64,000 nucleotides of DNA, from contig KK211275.1 in NCBI GenBank assembly GCA_000621425.1, forward strand, positions 226,523-290,522, written 5' to 3'. Below, one piece after another: positions 4,945-19,529 of the stretch. Every line of letters begins with the position of its first letter. Position 1 is the first letter of the stretch. Below the pieces are notes generated by a model. It saw only the letters and a list, made by a program, of their open reading frames with translations. It was not told where the DNA came from and searched no databases. The stretch is from Lachnospiraceae bacterium AB2028. Its GTDB lineage: Bacteria; Bacillota; Clostridia; Lachnospirales; Lachnospiraceae. A program made the translations under genes and the position numbers.

Positions 4945-5412
4945 ATGGGAATTATTTTGGAAAGAGTAACAAAAGATGATATAGAAACAGTCTGGAAGAT
5001 GCAGATAGAAGCTTTTTCGGGCCTTCTGGAGAAGTACCGTGATTACGACACGAATCCCGGTGCTGAAAACTTTGAAAAGGTACTGACCCGTTTTGAGCAG
5101 CCATGGACCGCATATTACTTCCTGGTGGCTGACGGCCAAAGGATAGGCGCCGTCAGGGTAATTTACAAAAAGGACGGAAGCCGTAAGCGCATCTCTCCTA
5201 TGTGGATCATGGCGGAGTACAGAAATAAAGGGTACGCACAGCAGGCTATAGCGGCGGTCGAGGATATGTACGGTTCTGACAACTGGTGCCTTGAGACTAT
5301 AAAGCAGGAGGCCGGGAACTGCTATCTGTATGAAAAGATGGGGTATCATCGTACAGGTGAAGAACAAAAGGTCAATGAGTCGATGGACTTAGTCTTTTAC
5401 GAAAAAGACTGA
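4945..5412 (+). CDS. GNAT-family N-acetyltransferase
   Basis: A 155-residue single-domain acetyltransferase. The core strand and acetyl-CoA loop are visible as SPMWIMAEYRNKGYAQQAI (about residues 89-107), with the C-terminal NCYLYEKMGYHRTGE element. The R/Q-x-x-G-x-A loop is slightly divergent (RNKGYA). Substrate unknown. No strong ribosome site precedes ATG 4945, so it may be coupled to the MFS gene. Confidence 0.85.
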   Translation: MGIILERVTKDDIETVWKMQIEAFSGLLEKYRDYDTNPGAENFEKVLTRFEQPWTAYYFLVADGQRIGAVRVIYKKDGSRKRISPMWIMAEYRNKGYAQQAIAAVEDMYGSDNWCLETIKQEAGNCYLYEKMGYHRTGEEQKVNESMDLVFYEKD

Positions 5413-5430
5413 ACGGTAGTAGGAGGAAAT

Positions 5431-6027
5431 ATGATTACAAGGGATGAAGCCTTTGAACTTTTAAAGAAATATAATAAGGACGCTTTCCATATCCAGCATG
5501 CGCTTACTGTTGAGGCAGTTATGAAGTGGTATGCGAATGAGCTGGGATACGGCGATGATGCTGAATACTGGGGGATAGTGGGACTGCTCCACGATATCGA
5601 CTTCGAGCTTTATCCGGAGGAACACTGCCTGAAGGCGCCGGAGCTTCTGAGGGAAGGCGGAGTCAGTGATGATGTCATACATGCGGTCTGCTCCCATGGA
5701 TACGGGATCACTGTAGGCTGCGGTACAACCATAGATGTGGAGCCGGTGCATGAGATGGAGAAGGTTCTTTTTGCTGCTGATGAGCTTACGGGGCTTATCG
5801 GTGCAGCTGCCCTTATGCGTCCTTCAAAAAGCACGAAGGATATGGAACTGAAGTCTCTTAAGAAAAAATATAAGAGCAAAGGATTTGCGGCCGGCTGCTC
5901 CAGGGAAGTGATAGAACGCGGAGCTGCCCAGCTTGGCTGGGAGCTTGATAAGCTGCTGGAGATGACGCTCCGTGCAATGGCAGCCACAGAAGACTACATA
6001 AATGCGGAAATGGTTATAAAGGGATAA
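5431..6027 (+). CDS. HD-domain hydrolase
   Basis: A 198-residue HD-superfamily phosphohydrolase. His23, then the HD doublet His53-Asp54 in LLHDIDFEL, a histidine in the next helix (CSHGYG) and a late Asp (AADELTG) provide a plausible metal-binding set of the HDIG type. Such proteins cleave phosphomonoesters or phosphodiesters of nucleotides. An excellent AGGAGG site lies 6 bases before the ATG. The following restriction island begins 35 bp downstream. Confidence 0.85.
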   Translation: MITRDEAFELLKKYNKDAFHIQHALTVEAVMKWYANELGYGDDAEYWGIVGLLHDIDFELYPEEHCLKAPELLREGGVSDDVIHAVCSHGYGITVGCGTTIDVEPVHEMEKVLFAADELTGLIGAAALMRPSKSTKDMELKSLKKKYKSKGFAAGCSREVIERGAAQLGWELDKLLEMTLRAMAATEDYINAEMVIKG

Positions 6028-6062
6028 ATTTGTACATTATATAAGCAAGGCGGAGGTTTAAA

Positions 6063-6707
6063 ATGGTTGTTGAACAGGTGACTAGGGGGCGTAATAATTT
6101 ACCGGTGAATGTTTATAGACTGGACGTAACTCGTGATATGAAGGAACGGTCATTGGATTTTGCAACAAGAATAATTATGACTAATAATCAGTACTCTCGT
6201 TTGTTACCGAGACAAGTATGGCAGTCAGGTAATCTTGAAAAAAAGGAAAAACTTGAAATACAGCGCACATATGTAGGTAAATTGGGGGAGCTGGTTTTCC
6301 GGGACTTATTAAACAACATGGGAAAACAGGTTGATACATCGGGAATGTTTGAGATATATGAAGGTCAGGATAACGTTGATGAGTTTGATTTCAGAACCAG
6401 GGATGGCAGGTCAGTTGATATAAAGACAGGGTTTAGGACAATTCATAGCAGGTTGTTGATAAATATTGACCAATTTGAGCGTATCCCTAAAGATTTCTAT
6501 GTTGGTATCTGGTTGAATGGTGCGGATGGGGATTCCGAAGGCAAGATTATTGATTTAGATTCGATAACAGAAGGCGTTGTGTACGGCTATGCAGAGCATG
6601 ACTATTTACAGAATCGTGCACAGACGTCTAATTTTACAGAGAGTCCGGCAAAATTTATTGCGTACAATCAGTTGATGGGAATTGACCGACTGATTGCGCT
6701 GTTTTAA
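6063..6707 (+). CDS. Putative PD-(D/E)XK nuclease, first gene of the restriction island
   Basis: A 214-residue protein of no named family that I recognise. It shows the skeleton of a PD-(D/E)XK nuclease: a GKLGE helix start (Glu76), Asp109 in DEFDF, and Asp119-Ile-Lys121 on the next strand. Spacing and the preceding hydrophobic helix fit that fold. It could be the site-specific endonuclease of the island or an accessory subunit, in the place that YdiR-like proteins take in BsuMI-type clusters (position only; sequence relation not tested). GGCGGAGG precedes the ATG. Like the next four genes it is visibly richer in A+T than the flanking genes, which suggests transfer. Confidence 0.6.
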   Translation: MVVEQVTRGRNNLPVNVYRLDVTRDMKERSLDFATRIIMTNNQYSRLLPRQVWQSGNLEKKEKLEIQRTYVGKLGELVFRDLLNNMGKQVDTSGMFEIYEGQDNVDEFDFRTRDGRSVDIKTGFRTIHSRLLINIDQFERIPKDFYVGIWLNGADGDSEGKIIDLDSITEGVVYGYAEHDYLQNRAQTSNFTESPAKFIAYNQLMGIDRLIALF

Positions 6708-6757
6708 ATACGGCTTGGATAAATCCCGAGTAAATAGCGGAAAGAGTGCGATAGACG

Positions 6758-8398
6758 ATGAAACAAAAAGTAAGTGGTGTGATGAACGATGTTCTCAATG
6801 CGGCGTATGTTTATCTGGATTCGAAATATGCGGGAGAGGATCTCAATGCATTAAAAGGGATCTTATTGAGCCTGGCTGGGATAAAGAGTTTTGAATTCAG
6901 TACCGATAAGGATGTTCATTACTCATACGACGACATTCAGGATGTCTTATCTAATCTCAACGAAAAGGAGTCGATACGGAAAAGCAAAGGGGTGTATTAC
7001 ACGCCACTGGATGTAGTTAAGTTCATACTTGAGAACAGCATAAAAGCAATGTATGGAAAACTTGGAACTAACGGTCTTCATGTGATGGACTTGAATGGGA
7101 TACCATATCGTTCTTTTTGTTTGAGTAAACAGGTGTTTGATCCTACCTGTGGAGCCGGAGAGTTTCTGCTTGCTGCATTAGAAATGAAATTTGATTTACT
7201 GGACAATCATACAGATTCGATTACTGAAAGTATGATAAAAAAAATAGTGAAATCAGTTCATGGAAATGATATCAATGTAGAGTCTGCAGCCATAACTAAA
7301 ATCAGGCTGTTTCTTTGTACACTTAGAAGATATGGATTAAAGCGGGTAAAAGGGATTGGTCCACTGTTGAATGAAAATTTCCATCATTATGATTTTATTT
7401 CAAATGCGTTCAAGTCTCGGGATAGGTATGATTTGATTATTGGGAATCCGCCGTATGTTGAGGATAGTCAATGTGGGTTGGATTTAAAAGAGAAATATGG
7501 AAATATTTATGCCAATGTTTTGATTAATTCTAAAGATATTCTGAATGCCGGGGGCGCGATAGGTTTTGTCATTCCACTTTCATATGTGGCAACCCCGCGG
7601 ATGCAAAGAATACGTGACGACTTGTTTGAAAATATATCGGAACAGTATATATTGAGCTATGCAGATCGACCGGACTGTCTGTTCAAATCCGTGCATCAGA
7701 AACTCTGCATTTTAATCGGCAGTAAAAGAAACGGCGAAAAGAAAGTATTTACGGGTAATTATCAGTATTGGTACAAGGAAGAGAGAGAAAAACTTTTTGA
7801 ACAGACTGTTGCGGTAAAAAATGTCTTTGCAGCAGACGGCTATATTCCGAAATTAGGGACGTCTGAAGATATTAGTATTTATAAAAAGGTTTGTAGGACA
7901 AAAGGCAGGATCCCGCTGATAAATCTTCAAAAAGCGGGGGGGGAGAGCGTATATGTAAATATGAGGGCTGCCTTTTGGATCAAAGCCTTTAGGGAAAAAC
8001 ATTCGGGATCAGAATATAAGCGTTTTACCTTTGATTCATCCGAAAAGGCATATTATTTTGATTGTTTGATAAATTCATCATTGTTTTGGTGGTATTGGAT
8101 TTGCATTTCGGACTGTTGGCATATAACCAACAAGGAACTCCAAGGATTTATGGTTCCTTTAGCAGCAAACTTGGAAAAAGCGAGGATTCTTTCGGTTTCA
8201 CTTGAGGAAAAATTAGAAGAAACGAAATTATATGTTGGAACAAAGCAAACGGAATATGAGTATAAGCATAGGGAATGCGTGGATGAAATACATGCCATTG
8301 ATGACTATGTTAATTCGGTTTTTGGATTGACTGATGCGGAGAACCTGTATATAAAGAATTTTGGATATCGTTATAGAATTAGCGGAGGAGCGGAGTGA
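6758..8398 (+). CDS. N6-adenine DNA methyltransferase (Eco57I-like)
   Basis: A 546-residue DNA methylase that transfers a methyl group from SAM to the N6 of adenine. In order: an N-terminal helical region, motif X GVYYTPLDVVKFI (78-90), motif I VFDPTCGAGEF (126-136), catalytic motif IV NPPY at 230-233 within DLIIGNPPY, and a C-terminal region (about 330-546) that should contain target recognition. The order X-I-IV is that of Type II gamma and Type IIG enzymes, but no nuclease domain is fused. A run of eight G (7936-7943) lies inside the coding sequence. The stop overlaps the GTG start of the next gene. Confidence 0.9.
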   Translation: MKQKVSGVMNDVLNAAYVYLDSKYAGEDLNALKGILLSLAGIKSFEFSTDKDVHYSYDDIQDVLSNLNEKESIRKSKGVYYTPLDVVKFILENSIKAMYGKLGTNGLHVMDLNGIPYRSFCLSKQVFDPTCGAGEFLLAALEMKFDLLDNHTDSITESMIKKIVKSVHGNDINVESAAITKIRLFLCTLRRYGLKRVKGIGPLLNENFHHYDFISNAFKSRDRYDLIIGNPPYVEDSQCGLDLKEKYGNIYANVLINSKDILNAGGAIGFVIPLSYVATPRMQRIRDDLFENISEQYILSYADRPDCLFKSVHQKLCILIGSKRNGEKKVFTGNYQYWYKEEREKLFEQTVAVKNVFAADGYIPKLGTSEDISIYKKVCRTKGRIPLINLQKAGGESVYVNMRAAFWIKAFREKHSGSEYKRFTFDSSEKAYYFDCLINSSLFWWYWICISDCWHITNKELQGFMVPLAANLEKARILSVSLEEKLEETKLYVGTKQTEYEYKHRECVDEIHAIDDYVNSVFGLTDAENLYIKNFGYRYRISGGAE

Positions 8399-9495
8399 AA
8401 GTAATAGATTTATTTGCCGGTTGTGGTGGGCTTTCGTTAGGATTTATGAAGAACGGATACAAGATTGAAAAGGCTGTTGAATTTGATCCTTCGATTGCAA
8501 ATACCTACAAGCTTAACCATCCTGATGTAGATGTCATTGTAGATGACATTAAGAATATTGATAGCTCGGGGTTATTTAAGAAAGGCGATGCAGATGTTAT
8601 TATCGGAGGACCACCTTGCCAGGGCTTTTCTATGGCGGGAGCCAGAATACGTCACGGTTTTATTGATGATCCAAGGAATTATCTTTTTAAGCATTACTTT
8701 AATGTGGTTAAGACAGTAAAGCCTAAGGTTTTTGTAATGGAAAATGTTAAAGGAATGCTTACAATGCAGGACGGCAAGATATTTGAAGAAATTATAGGTT
8801 CTTTTTCGAACCCGGACCTGCTTGACGGAGAACCCTATGATATTCACTATCGCGTAGTGAAGGCTTCGGATTTTGGCGTTCCGCAAAAACGTGAAAGATT
8901 AATTATAATAGGAACCACAGTTAAGAATGTTGATTTTGATAAATGCTGGGAGAATACGGTTGGTAGCATAAAAAGTGATATACCGTCCTTCTTTGATCCA
9001 GTGACGATTCAGGATGCTATTGGGAATTTAGGGGATGTTACTCCGGACGGAAAGATTACGAATCCGGACGCAGATAATGAATATGAAAGATTCTTATCAT
9101 GTGACAGAGAATACATAGAAAACCATATACAGACAAAACACTCCAAATTAGCGGTAGACAGGATGAGCCGAATAAATAATGGGGATAACTTTACCTCCTT
9201 AGATGAAAAGATAAATTCGGTTCATAGTGGATCCTATGGAAGGTTATGCTGGGATGAGCAGGCGCCTACAATTACGACTAGGTTTGATACTCCGGCAGGC
9301 GGAAGGTTTATCCATCCTGCTGAAAATAGAACCCTGACACCACGAGAGGCAGCCCGAATACAGAGCTTTCCGGATGATTTTGTGTTTTACGGCAACAAAA
9401 CGTCAGTGTGCAAACAGATTGGAAATGCTGTGCCACCTAAAATATCTTACTTTTTAGCAAGACTCATTAAGACGATCTTAAATGAAGAGGTGTAA
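8395..9495 (+). CDS. C5-cytosine DNA methyltransferase
   Basis: A 366-residue 5-methylcytosine methylase. Motif I is DLFAGCGGLSLGF (5-17), motif IV is GGPPCQGFS with nucleophile Cys75, motif VI is ENVKG (116-120), motif VIII has QKRER, and the C-terminal motif X reads GNAVPP. The variable stretch around 190-290 is the target recognition region. It starts with GTG at 8395, overlapping the preceding TGA by four bases, so the two methylases of different chemistry are translationally coupled. It protects host DNA or sets the mark recognised by the McrBC-like pair downstream. Confidence 0.95.
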   Translation: MKVIDLFAGCGGLSLGFMKNGYKIEKAVEFDPSIANTYKLNHPDVDVIVDDIKNIDSSGLFKKGDADVIIGGPPCQGFSMAGARIRHGFIDDPRNYLFKHYFNVVKTVKPKVFVMENVKGMLTMQDGKIFEEIIGSFSNPDLLDGEPYDIHYRVVKASDFGVPQKRERLIIIGTTVKNVDFDKCWENTVGSIKSDIPSFFDPVTIQDAIGNLGDVTPDGKITNPDADNEYERFLSCDREYIENHIQTKHSKLAVDRMSRINNGDNFTSLDEKINSVHSGSYGRLCWDEQAPTITTRFDTPAGGRFIHPAENRTLTPREAARIQSFPDDFVFYGNKTSVCKQIGNAVPPKISYFLARLIKTILNEEV

Positions 9496-9501
9496 TAATA
9501 G

Positions 9502-12500
9502 ATGAAAAATGTTTTGTTAAGGGGAGGCACGGGAACAGGAAAAACCGTTACTGCCAGAGCAATTGCTTTTTATGTTGGACATGAGGGACAAGATATTGAT
9601 ACCGTATATGGAAATGACTTTTATGCAGATCGTTATTACATTGAAAATTTTATCCAAGGTGATTTTGTAGAGTATATTCAGGTTCATCCATCAATGTCCT
9701 ATGAAGACATTGTTTACGGAATAGAGATCAAACCTAATCAGTCCCTTACTATAAATTATGTTGAAAAGAGAATAAAGGCAATTTGTGATAGGGCAATCGG
9801 CAGGGCTGAAACATTTTTTATTATTTTGGATGACATCGGAAGGACTAATGTTGGAAGGCTATTAGGTAACCTTTTGTATGCACTGGAGTATAGAAATCAG
9901 CCTGTTTCATTAGCGGACGGTGGTACTCTTATTGTCCCTGATAATATCTGTTTTATTGCAACTGAATGCAAAGCGGCCTATGGAACGCAGATGGAATATG
10001 CTGTTCGTAGAAGGTTTGACTACGTCAAGGATTTATCTGCAGATAAAACTGTGTTGAATAAATATTATAGTACTGTTATACATAACGGCTTAAGTAATAT
10101 AATCATTACAGTGTTTGACAGTATTTGTAACTTTGTAAGTAGTCATATAATGTTGGATCCTGCGATTCAAGTGGAAAACTATCTTCCGGGCCATGGAATG
10201 TTCATTGTGGATAGGTGTGGGACGGTTAATGATATTCTTATCAGACTGAAACAAAAAATCAACTACCAGGTGTTTCCGTATTTGAGTGATTTAAGAAAAA
10301 ACGGGACTATAATAGCCAAGGATGATGAGATAGATAATCTTTTGAATCTTGTAATGAATCAAATAAATGCCGGGCAAAATAGCGCAACAAATAATGCTAC
10401 TGTTAAAAAAATCTTTAGTGATACGTCTCATCAAGGTCAACCGGTACCCATTTTTAGTATAGCAGATTCTTTTAATTACTATGGTAAATCAATCATCCCT
10501 AATGGCTGTACAGAGCATAGGACAATTATAGAATGCATTGTTGATGCCATCTTTTTAAATGGAATATTTTCTGTAGATAAAGCCTTGTCTGATATACTTC
10601 TCGATACAAAAAAAATTGGATTTGCACATCAAACTCTACCGGGAACGTATGCATCGTTTCTGGTAGATAAAAAAGAGACAGATAATTATGGATATACTAG
10701 ACCAAAATTTAGACCTTATCATTCGCCAAATGCATGTGCCGTCCCGGGAACGAGGTGGGGACCAACCCCGAATCCTAATTATGTGCCGGGATCCAGTAAG
10801 GCCGGTGAAAAAAACAAGTTAAATAAAGATGGTAAAGGCATCGGATATGAAGTGACATTTGCAAATGGAAATACGGCTGTTTATATTCCGCTTAATGCTT
10901 TCAGGAATACTTCAGCTAAGATTAATTCGTATACTATTTATGGAAAAGACGAACCTGCGGCTATTTACCCTGCGCTGTATCATCTGATAAAAACTTATTT
11001 ATCCGCATATGAATCAAGCTTGTTGCTAATGAGTGTTTCGGACTCAAAGTATACAGATGTCTATAATTTGGTGAAATTAGAGAATCAATACTGGGATTCA
11101 AAACATGCTGAGTCAATAAGGCAAAAGGGTAATCCAGACAAACTTAGCAATTTAGCAGGAGCGGTAATGAAACTGCGGACTCTCAAAAATAGTGCCGGTA
11201 CATCCTTAGATGTGGATTTAAACAAATTTACTAATTTGGTTAATGGAGTAACGCCTTTTTCGGTAGCGGCTTATGAGGATTTATATACTATCACGGGAAC
11301 CGTTAAAACAATAACATTAGAAGGAGTAAAAACAATGATTGATGTAAATGATTACCAGGCAATTATGGAAAACACGAATGTCAGACAGATGGTATTTCAG
11401 GGCCCCCCCGGAACATCAAAGACCTTTGAGAGCCAAAGATTTGTTTTAAAAAATCTTGATCCAAATTCTTCAGTAGCAAAAGACAATAATCCGAAACCGG
11501 AAGATATTTCAAAGGCACTTGATCCATATAAATTGACAGCAACTGATTATGCTAATCCTTCCGGCTCTGCAAAATTGAAAACCGGTGGTTGGGATCTGGT
11601 TCAATTTCATCCATCTTACGGATATGAGGATTTTATTCGCGGGATTGATGTAAAACCTGTAGCTGGCCAGCCTGTATATGAATCGGTTAACAGATTGCTG
11701 GGTAAGATTTCTGAATTTGCTAAATTGGCGGAAAAGGCAGCCGGACAAAGCGTATCTACACAGGATCATCCTGAGCAAGATAAATCCAAGCCCAAATTTT
11801 ATTTAATAATTGATGAAATAAATAGGGCAAATCTGGCAACAGTATTCGGCGAACTGATATATGGTCTGGAATATAGGGATAGTGAAGTTTCAACCCCGTA
11901 TGAGGTTAATGATAGGGTTACAAATGGTGTTACTAAAGATATCGTTTTGGGAAAGAATCTTTATATCATTGGAACCATGAACACGGCTGACAAATCAATA
12001 GATGCAATAGATTATGCAATCAGAAGAAGATTTATTTTTGTAGATAGTCCGGCGAGACGTGATGTCATAATTAACTGTTATAAAAATACTATGAACGTGT
12101 CGGATGAGAATTCTATCGAACTACTTGTTTTTGATGCTGTATCAAAGCTTTTTGATGATGATCGTTTCTTCAATGACGAATATCAAAAGAGTGATGTTAA
12201 GATAGGACATACATATTTTCTGCGTAGGGATAAGGATAATTATTGTGATATGCTGGCTAATCGATTTGTATTTCAGGTTATCCCTATTCTTAGGGAATAT
12301 GTAAAAGACGGAATATTAAATTCTTATGAGGAAAAGAGCAGCCTGGAGCATGGCGCAGCGGACATAGTGAATGCTACAAATGAAGACAGAGCAAAATTAT
12401 TATCGGAAGAAATAATGCTGTTCATAAAGCATTTTGGAGAGAAGGACTCTGCAAATAAGATCATTGACAATAAATATATTGCAGAATATCTGGATGACTT

Positions 12501-12522
12501 ATGTAATCAATTAGGCTATTAA
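9502..12522 (+). CDS. McrB-like restriction motor with two AAA+ modules
   Basis: A 1006-residue NTPase. The first AAA+ module starts at the very N-terminus: Walker A GGTGTGKT (8-15), Walker B ILDDIGRTN (Asp110-Asp111) and an RRRF arginine, but the McrB-signature MNTAD is replaced by an unrelated sequence. The second module (about 620-940) is canonical: Walker A GPPGTSKT (634-641), Walker B IIDEINRAN (Asp771-Glu772), GTMNTADKS and IRRRF. The middle (about 230-600) has no recognisable domain. No N-terminal DNA-binding domain of the E. coli McrB type is present. It should pair with the McrC-like protein 17 bp downstream to translocate and cut DNA. McrB proteins usually use GTP. Confidence 0.88.
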   Translation: MKNVLLRGGTGTGKTVTARAIAFYVGHEGQDIDTVYGNDFYADRYYIENFIQGDFVEYIQVHPSMSYEDIVYGIEIKPNQSLTINYVEKRIKAICDRAIGRAETFFIILDDIGRTNVGRLLGNLLYALEYRNQPVSLADGGTLIVPDNICFIATECKAAYGTQMEYAVRRRFDYVKDLSADKTVLNKYYSTVIHNGLSNIIITVFDSICNFVSSHIMLDPAIQVENYLPGHGMFIVDRCGTVNDILIRLKQKINYQVFPYLSDLRKNGTIIAKDDEIDNLLNLVMNQINAGQNSATNNATVKKIFSDTSHQGQPVPIFSIADSFNYYGKSIIPNGCTEHRTIIECIVDAIFLNGIFSVDKALSDILLDTKKIGFAHQTLPGTYASFLVDKKETDNYGYTRPKFRPYHSPNACAVPGTRWGPTPNPNYVPGSSKAGEKNKLNKDGKGIGYEVTFANGNTAVYIPLNAFRNTSAKINSYTIYGKDEPAAIYPALYHLIKTYLSAYESSLLLMSVSDSKYTDVYNLVKLENQYWDSKHAESIRQKGNPDKLSNLAGAVMKLRTLKNSAGTSLDVDLNKFTNLVNGVTPFSVAAYEDLYTITGTVKTITLEGVKTMIDVNDYQAIMENTNVRQMVFQGPPGTSKTFESQRFVLKNLDPNSSVAKDNNPKPEDISKALDPYKLTATDYANPSGSAKLKTGGWDLVQFHPSYGYEDFIRGIDVKPVAGQPVYESVNRLLGKISEFAKLAEKAAGQSVSTQDHPEQDKSKPKFYLIIDEINRANLATVFGELIYGLEYRDSEVSTPYEVNDRVTNGVTKDIVLGKNLYIIGTMNTADKSIDAIDYAIRRRFIFVDSPARRDVIINCYKNTMNVSDENSIELLVFDAVSKLFDDDRFFNDEYQKSDVKIGHTYFLRRDKDNYCDMLANRFVFQVIPILREYVKDGILNSYEEKSSLEHGAADIVNATNEDRAKLLSEEIMLFIKHFGEKDSANKIIDNKYIAEYLDDLCNQLGY

Positions 12523-12538
12523 GTAAAGGTGATAAAGC

Positions 12539-13891
12539 ATGGCTAGTAAGATAATTCTGCATGAATTTGAAGACTGGGATGAAATCAAAAAGAAAGAAGA
12601 ATTCATCCAGCGAATTGATATGTCCAGGGAAGAAAATTTTGGCATCCATCCTTATAAAGGGAAAATATGGACAAGCGGATATGTGGGGGTGGGACGTCTG
12701 TACGGATATGGCGGCAGGCCTTTGGTTTCGGATGGAAAGGAACATGTGGCTGTAATTAATTCGAAATACCATGTTGATCCGTGGAAGATGTTGGAAAAGG
12801 TTATGGCTGATAAAGAGGAATATGATGACTATGTAGCAGAATTGGAAAAAAATGGAAAATTTCTTTTTAAGGTTTTTTATGACCAGTCGGTAATAAAGCT
12901 TGATCAGGATCAGGAATACGATGCGGACGTGCTTTATGCATTAAGCTTTATAAATTCATGCTTTGACCTTTGCAAAAAGGGCGTGAAAAAAAGAATGATC
13001 CATCAGGAAGATAATTATAATGCAAGGATTCGTGGACGAATAGATATAAGAAAGAATATCAGAAAAAACACAGTTAATGGGCGTAATGATAGGTTTTATT
13101 GTAAGTATATCGATTTTACGGCTGATACTATTGAGAATCGTATACTGAAGGCGACCTTAATAAAGTGTAAAGGAATTTTAGGAAAGAAGTTTGAATTAAA
13201 ATCTGAGGTTATGAGCAGGCTGCATTATTGTCTGAATGTATTAAAAGGCGTAAGTTCAACCAAGATAAAAATAAAAGACTTTAATGATGTTGTAGTGACG
13301 GGGTTGTATATATACTACAAACCTTTAATAAAGCAGGCAAAAGCTATTTTGACGAAGAAACTTAATTCGTATAAAGCAGAGGGCGAGTCAGCTATTAACA
13401 AAAGTGTGTTTGTTATACCGTATATGATTAATATGGAGAGTTTGTTTGAATTTTATGTTCGAACAGTGTTAAAGGAAATCCTTGATAGTAACAAGTATTA
13501 TGTGAGAAAATTTTCCGAGCATATATTAATAGAGAAAGGCATCACAAGAGATGAAGACGCCTTAAAGGGAATTCATTTAATGTCATATTGCATTCCGGAT
13601 ATCATTATTGTTGAAAAAACAACAGGAAAACCTGCGTATGTATTTGATGTAAAATATAAGTCAAATGCTGAATCACAGAGGAATGACAGTCATCAGTTGC
13701 TGTCGTATGTTCTGCTTACAGGCGTTAAAAAGTGCGGTTTTATCTTCCCAGGAGAGAAAACCGAAATTAAGAAAATGAGAAATAATGATTCATTGGATGT
13801 AACGACGCCGTTTATACCACAGTTGCAATATTATGAGCTGATTGTCGGAAACAAAGTTGAAAAGACGGTAATTGACAGTGTGATTGCGTAA
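12539..13891 (+). CDS. McrC-like nuclease subunit
   Basis: A 450-residue partner of the McrB-like motor. The C-terminal part carries the McrC PD-(D/E)XK core: IPDIIIVE with Asp354, then YVFDVKYK with Asp370 and Lys372. The N-terminal two thirds (residues 1-300) would dock on the AAA+ ring and stimulate its hydrolysis. Length is within the McrC/LlaJI-R2/YdjA range. It is the last gene of the island; a degraded gene fragment follows at once. GGTGATAAAGC serves as a modest ribosome site. Confidence 0.88.
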   Translation: MASKIILHEFEDWDEIKKKEEFIQRIDMSREENFGIHPYKGKIWTSGYVGVGRLYGYGGRPLVSDGKEHVAVINSKYHVDPWKMLEKVMADKEEYDDYVAELEKNGKFLFKVFYDQSVIKLDQDQEYDADVLYALSFINSCFDLCKKGVKKRMIHQEDNYNARIRGRIDIRKNIRKNTVNGRNDRFYCKYIDFTADTIENRILKATLIKCKGILGKKFELKSEVMSRLHYCLNVLKGVSSTKIKIKDFNDVVVTGLYIYYKPLIKQAKAILTKKLNSYKAEGESAINKSVFVIPYMINMESLFEFYVRTVLKEILDSNKYYVRKFSEHILIEKGITRDEDALKGIHLMSYCIPDIIIVEKTTGKPAYVFDVKYKSNAESQRNDSHQLLSYVLLTGVKKCGFIFPGEKTEIKKMRNNDSLDVTTPFIPQLQYYELIVGNKVEKTVIDSVIA

Positions 13892-13927
13892 CTGCATTAT
13901 TTTTAATGAGGTAAAAGTCAGTGATAA

Positions 13928-14140
13928 AAGTCTTATTTATATGCCACGGCAGGATACACAGATAGTGCCTCAAACCCTTATGAATACTGGGTTTCAGGGA
14001 TATATACGAACTGTTTTATACCGAATTTATACCTTTTGTTCAGAACCGCCTCAAAAGAACAGCAGTATGACAGGATCCGTAAGGAATCTGAGCAGTTGAA
14101 GAGGAAATCGGCAGGCTTTAAGGAATGGGGGTACGGCTGA
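13928..14140 (+). pseudogene. C-terminal remnant of a lost gene
   Basis: From 13928 to TGA at 14138-14140 one frame of 70 codons is open with protein-like composition (for example NPYEYWVSGIYTN and KEQQYDRIRKESEQLKRK), but it has no start codon with a ribosome site and is preceded in frame by TAA at 13925. It looks like the tail of a gene whose 5' part was lost, perhaps when the restriction island inserted. Family not recognised. Confidence 0.4.
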
Positions 14141-14193
14141 TAAAAGAGTCACTGAGAATAACGAAAATAAAATGCGGGTAGTAAGGGGGTAAA

Positions 14194-19456: not shown

Positions 19457-19529
19457 TAAATTACCAATCATTTGATATAATAAAAAAACATGTATGTCGC
19501 CATACCTAGTTTTTCAAGGAGTTTCAACA

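Follow-up and report, generated by a model that had tools for sequence, protein, structure and literature searches.

LlaJI, encoded on plasmid pNP40 of Lactococcus lactis (NC_010901.1; L087 in our numbering of loci), combines two methylases, a McrB-like motor and a nuclease, in this order, in one operon, and follows the logic of an asymmetric site. According to the accessible text of O'Driscoll et al. (PMC1459862), it restricts unmethylated DNA, and its R1 protein is the sole specificity subunit. Other systems share parts of this design: as far as the available sections of the respective papers go, PcaI of Pectobacterium (PMC8989522) joins one Dcm-like 5-methylcytosine (m5C) methylase to a McrBC-like, single-AAA+ cutter of unmethylated DNA, and MboII (PMC3990576), which is of Type IIS, pairs an adenine methylase with a cytosine methylase for one asymmetric site. 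Here, we describe a locus of Lachnospiraceae bacterium AB2028 in which an N6-methyladenine (m6A) methylase and an m5C methylase directly precede a McrBC-type motor and nuclease (MA-MC-B-C). It lies in a 64,000-nucleotide stretch of contig KK211275.1, the whole of which we call the window and to which all of its positions refer. We consider it probable that these genes form a LlaJI-like Type II two-methylase system, in which an asymmetric site is protected by m6A and m5C and unmodified DNA is restricted, and which would serve the cell as a defence against viruses. The genes and the parts of B are as follows.

g1, 6063..6707, + strand: PD-(D/E)XK-like protein of 214 residues; optional upstream neighbour, putatively an accessory or stand-alone nuclease
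MA, 6758..8398, + strand: Eco57I-type N6-adenine DNA methylase of 546 residues, with motifs DPTCGAGEF and NPPY
MC, 8395..9495, + strand: C5-cytosine DNA methylase of 366 residues, with a GTG start inside the end of MA
B, 9502..12522, + strand: double-AAA+ McrB-like motor of 1006 residues
B, first AAA+ module, 9502..10347, + strand: begins at the extreme N-terminus; Walker A and RRR kept, Walker B DD, no NxxD (11/11 sequences)
B, middle domain, 10348..11322, + strand: about 325 residues, no family match; candidate DNA reader
B, second AAA+ module, 11323..12321, + strand: canonical McrB GTPase motifs GPPGTSKT, DEINRAN and MNTAD
C, 12539..13891, + strand: McrC-type PD-(D/E)XK nuclease of 450 residues, with invariant D354 and D370-x-K372

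All five frames are open with intact catalytic motifs, and the genes are separated by 50 bp (g1/MA), −4 bp (MA/MC, a 4-bp overlap), 6 bp (MC/B) and 16 bp (B/C), in line with the initial annotation, which had described five co-oriented genes with tiny gaps. It had also called the island richer in A+T than its flanks, and the GC content is indeed 0.373 across 6063–13891 against 0.44 on either side; the lowest value for a stretch of equal length not overlapping the island is 0.407. Family searches likewise uphold the proposed mixed pair of methylases, with MA matching Eco57I (PF07669, E 1.4e-11) and MC matching PF00145 (E 1.8e-76). BsuMI, which has two C5-cytosine methylases, differs from the window in this respect, as MA is of the Eco57I type. 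B matches AAA_5 (PF07728, E 3.5e-19) in two stretches, and C matches McrBC (PF10117, E 5.5e-30) as its sole Pfam match at E ≤ 1, as well as the McrC model (2.2e-15, though under that model's curated cut-off). In PADLOC, C had no match and B weak matches only, and an MA profile had no match in the PDB at the limits used.

The window system departs from LlaJI as follows: LlaJI has two C5-cytosine methylases instead of an m6A and an m5C enzyme, a single AAA+ module behind an N-terminal reader instead of two AAA+ modules with no N-terminal domain, and a nuclease of family PF09563 (RE_LlaJI) instead of PF10117. As the PF09563 nuclease and the N-terminal reader before a single AAA+ are both missing, we did not file it as a member of LlaJI. 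With the Type IV McrBC systems of E. coli and Thermococcus gammatolerans it shares the McrB family (second AAA+ of B, MNxxD in 11/11 sequences) and the McrC family (C), whereas its methylases directly upstream, its two AAA+ modules, the first of them without NxxD (0/11), and the absence of an N-terminal modified-base reader from B set it apart. The NxD variant signature, which along with coiled-coil fusions marks CoCoNuT, is absent from B, whose second AAA+ has NTAD, a form of NxxD. PcaI resembles the window in joining methylation to a McrBC-like cutter for which unmethylated DNA is the target (in the window, the predicted target), unlike it in having one methylase and one AAA+ module, and the available text on MboII, which has a mixed pair like that of the window, mentions no McrBC-like motor (PMC8989522; PMC3990576). 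A McrBC census reports methylase-associated McrB GTPase branches and leaves them to a later paper; the accessible portion of its main text does not describe a mixed m6A/m5C pair, effector exchange or a double-AAA+ McrB (PMC11090510). In Clostridium cellulovorans, a LlaJI-like system of four genes forms a barrier against plasmid DNA and may be a relative described earlier; the target bases of its methylases are not stated in the available part of that report (PMC11779793). We found no description of this combination in the literature searched, a search outside of which REBASE, DefenseFinder and subscription papers lie, and the system may be catalogued in REBASE as a predicted one. Two points are new: cutters have been exchanged around a single predicted dual mark, and one half of a McrB lacks the signature.

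In the mechanism we propose, MA would put m6A on one strand and MC m5C on the opposite strand of one short asymmetric site, and marking both strands would leave each daughter duplex with one mark after replication. B and C would form a McrBC-type complex, with B as nucleotide-driven DNA motor and site reader and C as nuclease, that binds unmodified sites, translocates and cuts. Within B, the first AAA+ would bind nucleotide and provide structure and arginine fingers, and the second is predicted to hydrolyse GTP; g1 would be an optional second nuclease.

Relatives of MA were collected in 36 loci from genome contigs, 10 from viral contigs and a Lactiplantibacillus plasmid (L034), which together with the window make 48; because the search relied on short conserved peptides, this sample is no census, and it holds some redundancy (L044 and L077 are identical in sequence, L078 and L079 close). 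MA is at least 40% identical in 42 of these loci, which form our counting set, the six weak relatives L076 and L082–L086 being excluded. An effector was seen in 37/42: a LlaJI-type motor/nuclease accompanies the MA-MC pair in 23 loci, B is present in 13, and one (L081) has an HNH protein in this role. Of the five loci without an effector, L066, L072 and L073 stop at a contig edge, L075 holds an MA fragment only and L061 consists of g1-MA-MC. All 23 LlaJI-type loci have the N-terminal domain and 20 have the nuclease, the remaining three running into contig edges. C follows in 11 of the 13 B-type loci (in one of the others, L078, the sequence stops inside B), and MC is in place in 12 of the 13. 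Across the counting set, MC accompanies MA in 38 loci and is missing from L072, L073 and L075, which are truncated or fragmentary, and from the B-type locus L064, whose genome has MC elsewhere; this result speaks against an independent occurrence of the methylases in relatives, which the initial annotation had named as a ground for refutation. The MC of that genome (L212, 7479–8582, − strand) is solitary, adjoining neither MA nor B, and is 73% identical to the MC of L055.

Across the order, the middle domain of B as query matched in 2/392 genomes, namely that of the window and G765 (the L063 locus), each time behind MA-MC; B as a whole found nothing in the genome contigs. The LlaJI-type N-terminal domain matched in 4/391 genomes of the class (G206, G208, G328 and G443), with MA-MC directly upstream in G206 (the L044 locus), G208 and G328. 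The G443 match (E 2.5e-4) was dropped as spurious, the protein being of RecF/SMC type.

Effectors have been exchanged around a single methylase pair, which speaks for protection by methylation. Effector-type groups were named before trees were built, and we left out L077 (the L044 sequence), loci without a full-length open reading frame (ORF) for MA or MC and loci without a LlaJI-type or B-type effector; the single-gene trees also omit the long-branch row L067. In the concatenated MA+MC tree (29 rows, 17 LlaJI-type and 12 B-type), the effector changes four times, at least three of these changes being forced by well-supported branches, and a single B clade is rejected (approximately unbiased (AU) test, p 1.2e-5). 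The MA-only tree (30 rows) gives five changes, four of them forced (p 6.3e-5), and the MC-only tree (28 rows) gives five (p 0.0077). The window methylases fall in a 100/100 clade with the LlaJI-type loci L041 and L043 in the MA+MC tree, and are closest to LlaJI-type L041–L043 by identity (66% for MA, 77% for MC), while B and C of the window are closest to L064 and L060. These trees suggest that the methylation pair was retained while the cutting machine changed. Since different cutters are kept by one methylase pair, the simplest reading would be that all of them are blocked by the same marks, and effector swapping in this way supports unmodified DNA as the probable target, as initially proposed. 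The loci amount to a natural experiment: the presumed protective methylation stays the same from locus to locus, the restriction machine does not, and swapping can test the rule that methylase and cutter must share a site. They would also extend McrBC-type cutters to mixed m6A/m5C protection.

How the site is read may differ between the effector types. In the LlaJI-type locus L034, the motor is 78% identical to LlaJI R1 of pNP40 over 321 residues and the nuclease, which matches PF09563, is 69% identical to R2, in agreement with the kinship in design to LlaJI that had been noted from the window. The first 310 residues of the L034 motor have no match to R1, MC is only 26–28% identical to the two C5 methylases of LlaJI, and MA has no real match there. 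As the N-terminal domain travels with the methylases across different motors, it is likely the site reader of the LlaJI-type and HNH versions. A profile of this domain matched neither B nor LlaJI R1 at E ≤ 10, and a profile comparison with the N-terminal part of R1 gave a probability of 0.4%; the reader profiles are shallow (effective number of sequences (Neff) 2–3), and distant kinship could escape them. B lacks this domain and has its own unique middle domain instead, which probably carries the site reader.

The HNH version is seen in L124 (genome G328; 5347–6738, − strand), where a 463-residue protein has a low-similarity N-terminal domain in front and an HNH domain at its end, directly behind MA (40%) and MC (62%). 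L081 has the same arrangement split over two ORFs (12671–14132). The N-terminal-domain profile matches L124 at E 2.4e-8 and L081 at 1e-4, the best of 210 shuffled proteins reaching 0.51. This HNH enzyme is perhaps a single-protein cutter for the same site as the motor systems. On a viral contig, L131 (3873–7996) encodes a superfamily 2 (SF2) helicase that ends in a reader-like domain (26% identity, E 5e-9). This domain overlaps with a match to the AlwI endonuclease family that stayed below threshold (1.6e-4); the helicase adjoins an amino-methylase, an m5C methylase and a NOV_C protein.

The two halves of B differ in their catalytic motifs. Eleven full-length B sequences (as called by the ORF finder, L063 included) begin at the first AAA+ and align end to end. 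In the first AAA+, Walker A and RRR are kept, Walker B has DD instead of DE, and NxxD is found in 0/11; DE and NTAD are both present in the second module in 11/11. According to the accessible text of PMC7680126, McrB needs the N and D of the NxxD motif to hydrolyse GTP, and its arginines work in trans. Because these residues are needed in McrB and the first module has no NxxD, we infer from the motifs that GTP is hydrolysed by the second module alone. An AlphaFold2 model of B had a mean predicted local distance difference test (pLDDT) score of 77 and a predicted template modelling (pTM) score of 0.48, a value too low to trust how the domains are placed with respect to one another. Its best matches are McrB AAA+ domains (T. 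gammatolerans, 2.2e-11; E. coli, 5.8e-11), followed by dynein motors, for which the alignments span more than 1,100 columns and the TM scores are low. With its two differing halves, this McrB allows a direct test of what inactive positions in the ring do during McrB translocation.

We put forward a wider reading only tentatively, as less likely than not. The m6A/m5C pair would serve as a dual "password" for at least two unrelated readers and at least three exchangeable cutters, namely the LlaJI-type motor-nuclease, the HNH enzyme with an AlwI-like domain and the double-AAA+ McrBC, and three B proteins would form a pseudo-hexamer in which GTP-hydrolysing and dead AAA+ sites alternate. By analogy, such an inherently asymmetric McrB ring might be likened to concatenated dynein modules or to the alternating sites of F1-ATPase; the way in which B proteins come together is a guess. 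The double-AAA+ form is not confined to the MA-MC-B-C operon, as one occurs without a methylase in the same genus: L039 (G034:C223, 10135–13272, − strand) encodes a 1045-residue double-AAA+ McrB-like protein, the first AAA+ of which lacks NxxD by eye, with two McrC-like neighbours (427 and 510 residues); the 17.7 kb of sequence showed no methylase.

The initial annotation had treated all five genes as one unit, which we rejected because g1 is found in only 9/42 loci (seven LlaJI-type loci, the window and L061) and is rare in genomes. It occurs in 2/144 genomes of relatives and in 2/391 of the class, the second match there being weak and without a methylase nearby, and as a query against the viral contigs it found nothing. 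The core is the four genes MA-MC-B-C, the order of which recurs in other loci and is thus more than a chance arrangement, and g1 is an optional neighbour and no fixed part of that order. It had no match in Pfam, PADLOC or NCBIfam at E ≤ 1; its PD-(D/E)XK residues (E76, D109, D119-x-K121) are invariant in seven sequences. For its AlphaFold2 model (mean pLDDT 84), the top Foldseek matches are the restriction enzymes NhoI, Eco15I and DpnI, all weak (best E 6e-3, none ≤ 1e-3), and all three are methylation-dependent.

These properties of g1 bear on the idea that two systems lie side by side, in which g1-MA-MC would be self-contained as a Type IIS-like restriction-modification system with g1 as endonuclease, and B-C an independent Type IV McrBC inserted behind it. 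Such an arrangement would fit the adjacency of g1 to MA in 8/9 loci that have it (in L050, it is about 6 kb off), the weak fold matches to restriction enzymes and L061, where g1-MA-MC stands alone and a glycosyl hydrolase gene comes next. It is unlikely nevertheless, as 33/42 loci have no g1 and yet MA-MC keep a motor/nuclease, the MC/B and B/C gaps are tiny across B-type loci (the exception, L065, is an effect of ORF calling, its B ORF being split), and both genomes with the middle domain have it behind MA-MC. The McrBC-like complex might instead read m5C or a half-modified state and cut host DNA or DNA with the wrong modification, in the manner of an abortive or a post-segregational device for instance, and the initial annotation had considered the cytosine mark as such a signal. 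In favour of this, cutting by classical McrBC depends on modification, the McrB GTPase core is present in B and C is of McrC type, and the weak fold matches of g1 are to enzymes that cut methylated DNA. We regard this as quite improbable, since the same MA-MC pair occurs with each of three unrelated cutters, LlaJI-type and HNH effectors among them, and a cutter of its own operon's mark would cut its own genome and be lethal; moreover, LlaJI (PMC1459862) and the LlaJI-like PcaI with its Dcm-like methylase (PMC8989522) target unmethylated DNA, as stated in the available parts of these papers. That the locus is only a remnant, decayed or incomplete, in which the genes have ceased to cooperate is very improbable: the island is A+T-rich and ORF remains with broken frames follow directly at 13,892–14,193, against which stand five open frames, intact catalytic motifs and a core that is 43–77% identical in other loci.

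Several points also count against a two-methylase system that restricts unmodified DNA through B and C. MA and MC could mark different motifs, and the MC-only tree is poorly resolved, its well-supported branches forcing just one change. In L052, the 5.7 kb next to B contain no C, L061 has no motor, and a profile of C found no relative in the PDB at the limits used. The LlaJI-type N-terminal domain and the middle domain of B gave an hhalign probability of 0.2%; as the middle domain does not match the LlaJI-type reader, its role as a reader follows by elimination, and the N-terminal part of C is an alternative candidate.

Related combinations occur on viral contigs, where we scanned with MC and examined 24 of the best 80 of 555 loci. 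Seven of these (L132–L138) have an MC of 41–45% identity and a LlaJI-like motor, with no MA and no LlaJI-type N-terminal domain, and a small amino-methylase precedes MC; PF01555 was confirmed in L134, L136 and L140. In L140, McrB- and McrC-like genes adjoin the pair of PF01555 amino-methylase and MC. The cutters of L132–L138 and L140 have other reader domains, and these loci show that it is not rare for a McrBC-like cutter to be combined with an amino-methylase and an m5C methylase.

A 64-residue HTH_17 (excisionase-like) protein is encoded before MA in 14/23 LlaJI-type loci and in L073, and in 0/13 B-type loci; it is possibly a regulator. Around the island, the window has no tRNA genes, and the longest word common to the island ends, where direct repeats were sought, is only 8 bp. 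The HD gene to the left of the island is present in 20/35 genomes of the genus, including the window's, with differing neighbours, and no clean empty site for the island was seen in the short loci examined. Directly behind C, at 13892–14193, lies the short frame-broken stretch with ORF remains; no match at the DNA level was found between it and a low-molecular-weight phosphatase ORF at 19494, and one of its frames resembles the start (KVLFICHG) of that ORF.

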